Shown here: piece by piece, positions 51,733 through 58,666 of the stretch
Numbering within the stretch: the first letter of the stretch is position 1
How the letters are laid out: each line of letters opens with the position of its first letter
Source: Sulfurisphaera javensis
Lineage (GTDB): Archaea; Thermoproteota; Thermoprotei_A; Sulfolobales; Sulfolobaceae
Assembly (NCBI RefSeq): GCF_041154675.1
Contig: NZ_AP031322.1
Span: forward strand, 2,479,812 to 2,543,811
Direction: 5' to 3'
DNA: 64,000 nt
Made by a program: the position numbers and the translations under genes
The notes under the pieces: generated by a model
The model's database searches: none
What the model was told of the DNA's origin: nothing
The model's input: the letters and a program-made list of their open reading frames with translations, nothing else

Positions 51733-51916
51733 TTTAAGCCTATTCTCTAAATCTTCAAACTTTAAAACTTCTCAGAAATACTAGAGCTTTTCATAGTAGT
51801 TGTAATATCTTTTGTAAGTGTGAGAGTAAATATAACAGATTCGTGTCTTCTTAACGAAAAACTGTATATGACATATTCTCATGAAAGATTTATATATTAT
51901 TAGAAATGATATTAAA

Positions 51917-53170
51917 ATGGATATGATTGGGAAACTAAGATTAATATCCATATTTATTTTAACATTACTTTTGATAGATTACGGACTTCAAATGCCATCT
52001 TTTGCTATCCTCTCAAATTATTCTATTCCTAGTGTAATGAATACTAATCCGACTACAATGTTTCATCCAGTTAAAATTCCGTTTAAATTTACTTTAACTA
52101 TTGCAAATATTTTAGTTAATGCACAATCCTCTCAGCAAAGTGTTACGTTTAACATTGTAAATAATCAATATATTTCAGGAAGCTATACTACTACTATTTC
52201 AGTATCACCAACTACTCTAACTCCCAATTCTACAAATAGTGTATCAGTATCAATATCTGGGAATAAATTACCTATAACTATTAATATACCACCAATTAAC
52301 ATAGGGGGCACACAAGTTTACTCTGGTGGGCAGTTTCAGTTGACTATTAACGCTCTAGGTACTTTTACGTGTGCTATTCCCGGATTGACTATTAACGCCT
52401 TTGTCTTCAGTGGAGGAGGATATATAAGTGTTATTGGAGAAATTGTAGGTTATGTTAATGTTAGTGGTGATGGCACTACATCTACTCAAAAGCTATGTTG
52501 GACTTCTCCTGGAGCTCAAAAGATAACAATAGAAACATCTAATGTAAAAAGCGGTAATGTTGTATTAGATATATATGATTTATCCTATGTTTTATCAATT
52601 TGTGTTTTCGTAAAGGCAAGCTCAGCTCTTGGCGGTAGTACTCAAATCACTGTAATTCCTCAAACTCAAGTAGGGAGTTTCAAAGGAGACCCAAGTTCAG
52701 TTCAATTCGATCTTAGTGTGTCATCAAGCATATTTCCAGAATTATCTTTGCCAATTCTCCTGCCCTTAGTCTCAGTACCCTTACTAGTAGGCGGAGTAGT
52801 TGCATATAGAAGGAAAAGAAAAGGTGGTAATAAGAGTCGGCCTAAGGTATCTAGTACGCCACAATATACTTACTCTCAGCCCTCAATTAAGTACGTTTAT
52901 GCTGGTGCAATAAGAAGGACCGGGGCTATTAAGCTTGTGTTAAATTCGACTGTAAAAGCTAGAATTGTCTCTATCTATGTGGAAGGGACGAATTACATCG
53001 CAAATAATATTACTCCTAGCGAAATACAACCTGGTAACAATGTTATTAGGGGATTCCTCAATCAAACGCCTTATAGTTTTAAGCAAGGTACAATATACAA
53101 TATTATAATGCATTATGAAGTTAATGGAAACTTATACGTTTTAAAAATACCTTCTTATTATATTCCATGA
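51917..53170 (+). CDS. Surface protein with one membrane helix and shared C-terminal domain
   Basis: 417 residues from ATG 51917. A signal-like helix (KLRLISIFILTLLLIDYGL), an external beta-rich part (about 45-280) with a Ser/Thr-rich strand pattern (NNQYISGSYTTTISVSPTT), a membrane helix near 285-305 (LPILLPLVSVPLLVGGVVAY) with basic RRKRKGG after it, then the common C-terminal domain: YVYAGAIRRTGAIKLVLNS, GTNYIANNITPSEIQPGNN and IPSYYIP. The topology puts the end in the cytoplasm. Start: the frame extends to ATG 51881, but TATATATT at 51891-51898 lies inside that extension, so ATG 51917 or 51923 is preferred. Role unknown; likely sensor or surface attachment. Confidence 0.78.
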   Translation: MDMIGKLRLISIFILTLLLIDYGLQMPSFAILSNYSIPSVMNTNPTTMFHPVKIPFKFTLTIANILVNAQSSQQSVTFNIVNNQYISGSYTTTISVSPTTLTPNSTNSVSVSISGNKLPITINIPPINIGGTQVYSGGQFQLTINALGTFTCAIPGLTINAFVFSGGGYISVIGEIVGYVNVSGDGTTSTQKLCWTSPGAQKITIETSNVKSGNVVLDIYDLSYVLSICVFVKASSALGGSTQITVIPQTQVGSFKGDPSSVQFDLSVSSSIFPELSLPILLPLVSVPLLVGGVVAYRRKRKGGNKSRPKVSSTPQYTYSQPSIKYVYAGAIRRTGAIKLVLNSTVKARIVSIYVEGTNYIANNITPSEIQPGNNVIRGFLNQTPYSFKQGTIYNIIMHYEVNGNLYVLKIPSYYIP

Positions 53171-53171
53171 T

Positions 53172-53524
53172 CTTGTGATGAAGTCCCATTGGCTTGTTGG
53201 TTCTCTTTCTTTTTTGCCATTCTTGTCTCACTTAATTTTATTTCTTCAAGTTTTTTAGCGTCTATTTTGTCGCTTTTCTTTCCTCTTTAGTTTTGATATT
53301 GTTAGTGGGTTTACTATTCTTATCTCGTAGTCCTTGTTTAGTGCTCTTATTACTTTTCTTGTGTATATTCCTGAGTCTTCTAGTATTATTTTTGATCCAC
53401 TTGGTAGTATTTTTCTTATTTCTTCGTATCCTTTTTCATCGTTTGTTAGCTTGTATAGTTTGCCTTGGTAGCTTAAGTACAAGGTTTTCTTTCCTATGTC
53501 TATTCCTGCTATTAATCCCTCCAT
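53172..53524 (-). mobile_element. IS110-family transposase remnant
   Basis: From ATG 53524: LIAGIDIGKKTLYLS has the first Asp, and KIILEDSGIYTRKVIRAL the Glu, of the DEDD recombinase domain; then VNPLTISKLKR. The frame is lost near 53280; one base shifted, the IS110 pattern KIDAKKLEEI appears, and the sequence ends close to the stop of the neighbouring gene. Only the N-terminal third remains, so no transposition by itself. The longest frame would begin at TTG 53554, inside the leader; ATG is more likely. Confidence 0.85.
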
Positions 53525-53655
53525 TTTCCCAACCTCATTCGGGCTTTTGCCCAACTTCCGGTACGGATGGAGGGAGGCCAGGCTAGCAACCGAGCTTGAG
53601 GCTCAGCTAGGGAGCCGGCCTCGTTCATCGGGTTTGAGTTATACAAACCCGACTA
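53525..53655 (-). ncRNA. Candidate bridge RNA in the IS110 leader
   Basis: Directly 5' of the IS110 transposase start lies a GC-rich stretch with three hairpins: TCGGGTTTG/CAAACCCGA (53628-53652, 9 bp, 7-nt loop); a long interrupted stem GAGGCC/GGCCTC, CTAGC/GCTAG and GAGC/GCTC (53574-53622); and GGGC/GCCC (53541-53552). IS110 elements are known to encode a bridge RNA between left end and transposase; the place, size and fold fit. Proof of the guide loops is not possible here. Confidence 0.6.
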
Positions 53656-53817
53656 ATATGTTTTATATGAGCTAGGGATAATACTCGACTTAAGTTCCTA
53701 TCCGCACTCAGAGTTAATAGACATATTGATAAGAAACATTAAACGTTACGTGATATGTAGATACATAATGAGTTTTTATATTTATGGCGCTAGCCAGTCC
53801 GCTAAACTTCTCACTTT

Positions 53818-56293: not shown

Positions 56294-56302
56294 GTGTATA
56301 TA

Positions 56303-58666
56303 ATGATGATTATGAGAAGAAACAAGATATTGCTATCTCTATTACTAATTACCATAGAGCTTTTAGCGTTGAGCATTCTAGTAGTTAATTCAACTACTTC
56401 TTCTACATATACTATTTCGTTCGTTGAATATGGATTACCCTTAGGCTCTACTTGGTCTGTAACTTTGAACGGACAAACAAAAGTAGCATATGCTAATGAA
56501 AATATAACCTTTTATGAGCCAAATGGAAATTATCAGTATATAGTGAATAGTTCTTTGTTATATTACAATGCGTCAATTTCGAAAGGTAATATCACAGTTA
56601 ATAACGAAGACGTTAGCCAAACTATTTTCTTTACACTCTCTACCAATCATGTATTTGGATACATACCAGTTATCCCGCGTACTACTGGATTAGCTTATGA
56701 TCCACAAAACAAATTATTATATGTGCCAATACACAATTACCAAAGTTATTTCTATTATGTTTATATAATTAATACTTCAGTAAATCAAGTTATAAATGGT
56801 ATTAATTTGAATAATTTTTTTCCATATAGTATCATATATGATCCGCAGAATAATCTGCTCTACTTAACAGGTTTTTATTCTCAATCTTCATATATGTACG
56901 GTTTAGGTCTTGAAGTTATTAATCCCTCAACAAATAAAATAATTTGTTCTGGTATTCTTCAACCATATAATAATAATATATATTGTGCTTATGATGCTAT
57001 AATTCCTCTTTACGATCCTAATAATAATTTAATTTACATAGCAGATCCTGCTACTGCTAGTATACTTGCTATTGCACCTCAGTTAAATAATTCATTAGTT
57101 GCAAATATATCTATTTCTCCGGGTAATGTATACTCATTTCATTCTTCTTATTCGGCACTTACATACGACCCCGATAATAATTTAATATATGTAGCAGATT
57201 ACGTATTACAAGCTCTAACAGTCATAAATCCGTTGACAGAAAAAGTGATAGCAAACATACCTCTTCCTTACACACCATATGGTGTTACTGTAGATACGAA
57301 AGACAATCTAATATATGTGGCTGGCTCCAACGGCATACTAATTGTTAATGGGATAACAAATGAGATACAAGGGAATATTAATATAAATTATTTTGATCCA
57401 AGTTATATAATGTATGATTCTATTAATAATTTAATATATGCTGATGGTAATGGTTTATATATAATTAACGCCAGTAACAATAATATAACTAATATATGTT
57501 ATTCAGAAGGTGGTTGGATTGATATGGTTTATGATCAAAATAATCATATAATGTATTTTGTCTCTGCTGGAGGTAGTGCTGTTGGGATGTTCTATCCCCC
57601 AAACATAAACTATAATGTAACATTTGAGGAAACTGGTTTGCCTAATGGAACTCACTGGTCGGTAACTCTAAATACCATGAAGGAGGCATCCTCTTCAAGC
57701 AATATAACATTTAATGTGCCTAATGGAACTTATTTATATACAATTAATGTCCAGAATAGTGGATACAATATTATAACTCCGAAAGTAGGAACAATAATAG
57801 TTAATGGTAACAACGTAATTATAGACGTTAAGTTTGTTCCTAACATAACCACGTATCCAATTACTTTTGAGGCAGTAGGTTTACCAAAAGGATTACCATG
57901 GTCTGTCACACTTTCCGGAACTTCCACTAACGGACAGTTCGTAAATATTACTCAGACATCTGATGAAAATACGATTAAATTTAATCTGACTTCTGGAACA
58001 TACTTTTATGTTATTAGACTACCTTCTGGCTATCATACTAATCAACTAAACGGGTCAATTACAGTCACAAATAGTCCACAAGTAATAAAAATATCAGTCA
58101 TGCCCACTGAGACTACATCTACTCAAACACAGACTACCACTACTATACAAACCTCTTCAACAAGTGTGTCCACTACTACCTCTACTACCTCTTCTTCCCC
58201 GATATCTTCTAATATTGCGTTGAGTTCCTCTTCATTATCTAGTCAATCTTTGCTTACTACTCCAATCTTGATTTTAGCTATTGTAAGTTTGTTTGCTGTT
58301 GTTAGTGGTGTTCTTGTTTTTAGGAAGGGAAGAAATAATTCATCCTCTCATAGTGGAATGATGGCTACTCAGCCTGTTATTAGGCCGATTTATAGTGGAG
58401 TTATTAGGAGTAATGGGATTCTTAAACTTTATTTAGATTCTAATATTGTTGCTCGCATAATTAGTGTTAGTGTGGCTGGAACAAATCTGATAGGAACAAA
58501 TGTTAGTCCTAATACCTTAAATATCGGTCAAAATACTATCTTGGTTACTTTGAATACTGTCCCTCAAGGGTTAGTACCAAACAGTGCAATTTATCAAACA
58601 GTTTTAACAATTGAGTATAATAAACAAACGTTTACAATATCAATACCAACGTACTATATACCATAA
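56303..58666 (+). CDS. Surface beta-propeller protein with thermopsin-like repeats and shared C-terminal domain
   Basis: 787 residues from ATG 56303. Signal helix, one beta repeat (YTISFVEYGLPLGSTWSVTL), a propeller with blades like YDPQNNLLYV and IYVAD (about 110-430), two more repeats of the first kind (YNVTFEETGLPNGTHWSVTL; YPITFEAVGLPKGLPWSVTL), a Ser/Thr linker, a membrane helix (ILILAIVSLFAVVSGVLVF) and the common C-terminal domain (GVIRSNG, LYLDSN, TLNTVPQGL, final YYIP). It is the intact form of the layout broken at 44540-46269. The repeats are of the type used by thermopsins and other surface proteins. GTG 56294 is possible, but TATA at 56274-56282 is about 25 bp before ATG 56303. 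Likely a sensor or adhesin with an inner signalling or docking end. Confidence 0.88.
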   Translation: MMIMRRNKILLSLLLITIELLALSILVVNSTTSSTYTISFVEYGLPLGSTWSVTLNGQTKVAYANENITFYEPNGNYQYIVNSSLLYYNASISKGNITVNNEDVSQTIFFTLSTNHVFGYIPVIPRTTGLAYDPQNKLLYVPIHNYQSYFYYVYIINTSVNQVINGINLNNFFPYSIIYDPQNNLLYLTGFYSQSSYMYGLGLEVINPSTNKIICSGILQPYNNNIYCAYDAIIPLYDPNNNLIYIADPATASILAIAPQLNNSLVANISISPGNVYSFHSSYSALTYDPDNNLIYVADYVLQALTVINPLTEKVIANIPLPYTPYGVTVDTKDNLIYVAGSNGILIVNGITNEIQGNININYFDPSYIMYDSINNLIYADGNGLYIINASNNNITNICYSEGGWIDMVYDQNNHIMYFVSAGGSAVGMFYPPNINYNVTFEETGLPNGTHWSVTLNTMKEASSSSNITFNVPNGTYLYTINVQNSGYNIITPKVGTIIVNGNNVIIDVKFVPNITTYPITFEAVGLPKGLPWSVTLSGTSTNGQFVNITQTSDENTIKFNLTSGTYFYVIRLPSGYHTNQLNGSITVTNSPQVIKISVMPTETTSTQTQTTTTIQTSSTSVSTTTSTTSSSPISSNIALSSSSLSSQSLLTTPILILAIVSLFAVVSGVLVFRKGRNNSSSHSGMMATQPVIRPIYSGVIRSNGILKLYLDSNIVARIISVSVAGTNLIGTNVSPNTLNIGQNTILVTLNTVPQGLVPNSAIYQTVLTIEYNKQTFTISIPTYYIP

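Follow-up and report, generated by a model that had tools for sequence, protein, structure and literature searches.

A probable bridge RNA gene in a dead archaeal IS110-family element and guide-target matching in its relatives

Introduction

The bridge RNAs that have been demonstrated experimentally are, in the literature that we found, bacterial. In IS621 of E. coli (PMC11208160, PMC11208158) the long left end encodes a leader RNA with a 5′ stem-loop, a target-binding loop and a donor-binding loop, the left and right target guides (LTG, RTG) and the left and right donor guides (LDG, RDG) address opposite strands, the core is CT, and the recombinase has DEDD and serine regions. The elements described here share all of this, including the strand logic by which the LTG is directed to the bottom strand and the RTG to the top strand, both with the core included (PMC11208160). 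They differ from IS621 in that the host belongs to a thermoacidophilic archaeal family and the copy in our window (the whole 64-kb stretch of DNA analyzed) is dead, in that the stem of the archaeal donor-binding loop includes the start codon, in that the predicted archaeal promoter is BRE/TATA-like and lies in the right end whereas that of IS621 is a sigma-70 promoter rebuilt on the circle, and in that the archaeal targets are mainly IS605/TnpB ends rather than REP elements.

IS110 elements are themselves known from the same host family. ISC1229 and other IS110 elements of Saccharolobus, many copies of which are decayed, are known for the binding of Cbp1, and the IS110 passages of that account do not discuss a guide RNA (PMC10883916). 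RNA-257 of S. solfataricus, which is also transposon-derived, was set aside, as it comes from ISC1904 and not from an IS110 element (PMC3674436). Our literature search returned no papers on ISC1190 and no published account of an archaeal bridge RNA; it covered the subscription literature only in part, and we do not claim priority.

Results

The ATG of the transposase (53524-53522) is on the minus strand, and the leader therefore runs from 53655 down to 53525. A preliminary description of this DNA had called the leader far richer in GC than its surroundings, which is borne out: its 131 nt have 56.5% GC against 31.5% for the window, and they overlap the richest-GC 131-nt stretch of the entire 64 kb, which begins at 53502. 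On the minus strand the fold reaches -61.6 kcal/mol compared with -41.0 ± 3.4 for shuffled sequences (z -6.1, none of 200 equally stable), whereas the plus strand gives a z of only -3.4. The three hairpins that had been described were recovered, as a stem of 9-10 bp (53653-53627), a three-part structure (53621-53576) and GGGC-AAAA-GCCC (within 53554-53539). A search of Rfam returned no matching family. Short hairpins are common, and GC-rich ones could stand before the transposase by chance and have no relation to it; however, the stability of the fold, the presence of the leader at the same place in full-length relatives and the stem pairs that have changed on both sides contradict this reading, which is already refuted by the shared position and to which we assign a negligible probability.

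The transposase is broken, as had been noted, being both frameshifted and truncated. When its two frames are joined it matches PF01548 at 29.1 bits (cut-off 29), and only this first domain is kept. The right end of the element is absent near the remnant, a loss that precludes formation of the circle and of its promoter, and we regard the window copy as a fossil. The hope that intact copies would be found in the same genome was disappointed: the remnant is the only copy there, and intact ones come from related species, both within the genus and elsewhere in the family. Plasmids and viral contigs held no further copies, and a wider search of genome contigs yielded one distant bacterial match, which was left out of the comparisons. 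The empty site corresponding to the flank of the remnant was not found in the genus, and a search of its own genome for the full predicted target CCCTAGCTAGCAAC gave near matches only, of which there were 4 as compared with 1 for the reversed control, a difference that is not persuasive. Predicted surface-type proteins (51881-53170 and 56294-58666, both plus strand) flank the remnant and a 665-aa open reading frame, and their C-terminal ends are nearly alike (IPSYYIP and IPTYYIP), a possible duplication.

Relatives of the remnant transposase are present in four genera of the family, and 40 of their loci were read. The close group has intact proteins of 316-318 aa with about 42-53% identity over the N-terminal part, and the same leader is present in these elements. 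In one intact relative (L050) the transposase matches the NCBIfam model for RNA-guided IS110 transposases at 223.9 bits, PF01548 at 52.3 bits and PF02371 at 99.9 bits. It aligns along its length, DEDD motifs and catalytic serine region included, with two PDB entries, IS621 (E = 2e-24) and the bridge recombinase of ISCro4 (PDB 9t56; E = 1.1e-25), the latter, bacterial by its name, being its closest solved relative as judged by protein sequence only.

The ends of the intact elements can be read from copies in one genome (G028), which share their sequence from CT|TATATAAAACATATTAG to ACCGGAAG|CT and differ in their flanks. The right end is short and terminates in ACCGGAAG, and a single CT stands at each junction. 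Empty sites with one CT, of the form CTGACYTC-CT-CCCCRCCCT (right half CCCCRCCCTRRA), occur in 22 of 31 family genomes, and a reversed control pattern had no matches. Covariance-model searches also found decayed or orphan bridge RNAs in three genomes, G011, G020 and G030 (L091, L092, L094 and L096-L099), some of them in genomes or loci where the protein search gave no group A transposase match. G013 contains at least 12 near-identical copies (L101-L112) of a third IS110 type (389 aa), in which the left end spans about 287 nt; most of these copies have the same flank.

Based on the comparison with these relatives, we conclude from sequence evidence that 53669-53517 on the minus strand very probably (probability about 0.94) encoded the bridge RNA of an IS110-family element that is now dead. 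The interval has the anatomy of an IS110 left end, in the order LE start, 5′ stem-loop, target-binding loop and donor-binding loop, the last reaching the transposase start codon (table 1). The left end of the window copy is about 145 nt long, compared with roughly 140-170 nt among the relatives.

Table 1. Features of the remnant element.
Feature	Sequence	Position	Strand	Basis or remark
IS110 transposase remnant, N-terminal RuvC-like part, frameshifted, remainder lost		53228..53524	-	Six-frame protein matches in two frames
Left target (LT), ending with CT core (53671-53670)	TTATCCCTAGCT	53670..53681	-	Junction from alignment with relatives
Left end (LE) start	CATATAAAACATATTAG	53653..53669	-	Right donor (RD) opens with CAT after core
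5′ stem-loop, 10 pairs		53627..53653	-	Three pairs altered on both sides relative to relatives
Target-binding loop	Outer stem GGCC/GGCC, inner stem GAGC/GCTC	53576..53621	-	Fold, alignment, pair counts, covariance model
Left target guide (LTG)	TCCCTAGCT	53605..53613	-	9-nt identity with left flank
Right target guide (RTG)	GGTTGCTAG	53583..53591	-	Position equivalent to relatives' RTGs that fit their right flanks
Donor-binding loop, stem containing start codon	Outer stem CCCTCCAT/ATGGAGGG	53517..53574	-	Fold
Left donor guide (LDG)	ACCGGAAG	53555..53562	-	Same as intact relatives' right-end terminus ACCGGAAG-CT
Right donor guide (RDG)	ATGAG	53534..53538	-	Complementary to element's own CT-CAT (53671-53667)

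The reading of the leader as a bridge RNA, put forward in the preliminary description, gains support from the remnant itself, whose loops correspond to the left flank and the left end of this same copy. The LTG is identical to the final 9 nt of the LT, TCCCTAGCT; of the 7,663 CT sites in the window, 4 match the LTG at 7 of 7, the element's own flank and guide being expected among them. Within the LE, ATATAAAACATATTAG is common to nearly all full-length relatives. Aligning the leaders for paired changes revealed double substitutions in the 5′ stem (A-U to G-C, A-U to G-C and C-G to U-A), all of which come from the window row of the alignment alone. The remnant matches the covariance model at 116 bits (E = 1.5e-25), a model that itself includes the remnant row. 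On the donor side the RDG pairs with the left end as ATGAG with CTCAT in the remnant and as ATAAG with CTTAT in relatives. The right target and right end of the remnant are lost, and thus the LTG and RDG were compared with its own sequence and the LDG only with the right ends of relatives; the RTG predicts that the lost right target was CT-AGCAACC.

The outer stem of the donor-binding loop, whose counterpart in relatives is CCTCC/GGAGG, pairs with the start codon region, so that folding would hide the start codon. It speaks for an ordinary structured 5′ untranslated region or attenuator of transposase translation, with no guide role. Such a reading leaves unexplained why a variable loop matches the flank of each copy and why loops match both element ends; guide-target covariation already disfavors it, and we consider it very unlikely as the sole role of the leader, although translational control may exist alongside a guide role.

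In the intact relatives the loops match the insertion sites and element ends copy by copy. In the first loop, the left flank of the copy recurs before the inner stem and the right flank recurs, as its reverse complement, after that stem; the second loop contains ACCGGAAG, which is identical to the right end, and ATAAG, which pairs with CTTAT of the left end. Among 27 non-redundant copies, the window copy included, LT-LTG matches numbered 134 against 100.8 ± 5.9 in shuffled pairings (0 of 20,000 as good), with one copy per LTG class (n = 14) they numbered 70 against 47.3 ± 4.3 (0 of 20,000), and RT-RTG matches, antisense to the right flank, numbered 104 against 87.6 ± 3.5 (1 of 20,000), counts that are not strict probabilities because the copies are related and the shuffles treat them as independent, which the per-class test alone partly corrects. 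Clear cases are L037 (GACACTAT; right side CTCCACAC), L033 (AGAACACT), L052 (GACGCTCCT) and L041 (ATCTCCT). We read the CTT that follows the RTG core in most copies as fitting the AAG that ends the left donor, which would resemble the handshake guides of IS621 (PMC11208158).

Alternatively, the repeats might act as DNA, as subterminal palindromes bound by a recombinase that chooses the target by itself. The 5′ stem-loop is indeed also a DNA palindrome at the element end, and TATA-like sequences overlap it. A protein that selects its own target, however, has no need of target copies within the element, and the guides change with the targets; moreover, an LTG in sense and an RTG in antisense orientation to the target are what a single RNA strand needs to pair with both DNA strands. 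We therefore hold the DNA-only reading to be extremely unlikely and retain that of a bridge RNA.

The fit is poor in L034, L044, L049 and L064. L056 and L057 look swapped, the former having a GACTTCCT guide in a GATGCTCCT site and the latter the reverse, an exchange that suggests gene conversion or a guide RNA acting in trans. Because several relatives fit their targets poorly or look swapped, copies appear to drift, convert or use the RNA of other copies.

A second IS110 subfamily in the same genomes (L113-L116 and L119-L138; about 330-420 aa) provides an independent set of guides. The RTG of L119 is GGGGAGAGGCG against CGCC|TCTCCCC, the LTG of L136, CCCCTTAA, matches its own flank, and the RTG of L113 matches CCACTACCC. 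For this subfamily LT-LTG matches numbered 57 against 39.4 in shuffled pairings (53 of 20,000) and RT-RTG matches 54 against 35.7 (2 of 20,000). Its core appears to be CC, and its bridge RNA overlaps the first ~35 codons of a long open frame.

Most guides that match aim at other mobile elements, chiefly at the 3′ end of IS605/TnpB elements. The commonest guide addresses the conserved terminus bordering the TnpB genes of IS605-type elements (at one such target, L084, OrfB_IS605 scores 112 bits and a TNB domain is present). The guides of L032 and L052 fall within the gene of an IS607-type serine recombinase, that of L033 within the C-terminal part of a further IS110 gene, and that of L046 within an ISC1217 transposase gene. 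Copies that match poorly are in some cases located in apparent host genes, for example those of an apparent permease (L043) and an apparent altronate dehydratase (L049), both judged by sequence only. In the set of 31 family genomes, a 22-nt motif, CTGACYTCCTCCCCRCCCTRRA, is located next to TnpB genes and likewise next to a transposase family of another kind (L078, L081, L082), as though IS605 ends received insertions of more than one type of element.

Discussion

Taking together the anatomy, the complementarity of guides to targets and donors, the CT cores at the junctions, the empty sites and the homology with IS621, all of which are visible in the sequences, we infer transcription of the leader, binding of the RNA by protein and formation of circles in the living relatives. 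In the mechanism that we propose, excision by the recombinase would yield a circular element, and the leader RNA would fold such that its donor-binding loop, with LDG and RDG, holds the circle junction while its target-binding loop, with LTG and RTG, holds the genomic target. Recombination at the shared CT dinucleotide would then give LT-CT-element-CT-RT with no further target duplication. The matched changes in the RDG and left end of the remnant and in its 5′ stem suggest that its lineage remained active for a while before being lost.

In archaea, transcription begins some 24-26 nt downstream of the TATA box. In 35 right ends of the first group the core is preceded, at a distance of 7 nt, by the BRE/TATA-like sequence GGAAAGGTTTTTATA, and the right ends of the second subfamily have CGAAAGnTTTATTA at about the same distance. 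Joining of the right end to the left end in the circle would place GGAAAGGTTTTTATA so that RNA would be expected to start at about the 5′ stem-loop. We hypothesize that this is a circle-dependent archaeal promoter, parallel to the sigma-70 promoter of IS621.

Insertion into mobile elements is not a new habit of this family, since IS621 goes into REP elements (PMC11208160) and members of the IS1111 group are reported, in a paper cited by PMC11208160, to go into transposon ends; the particular targets of the archaeal guides are new. We lean toward a broader interpretation in which these elements form an archaeal lineage of bridge-RNA recombinases that is adapted to heat and whose TATA-type promoter is put together on the circle. 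Its guides would have switched repeatedly to conserved sites in other mobile elements, that is, TnpB/omega-RNA 3′ ends, IS607-type recombinase genes, and other IS110 and ISC1217 transposase genes, with one RNA-guided element homing into another.

The window copy is a fossil, and the main value of the finding lies in its living relatives. They make guide-target matching visible in archaea of a thermoacidophilic family, which bears on the proposal that IS110, TIGR-Tas and archaeal box C/D RNPs are linked (PMC12045711), and their naturally re-aimed set of guides offers candidates for heat-stable, programmable recombinases.
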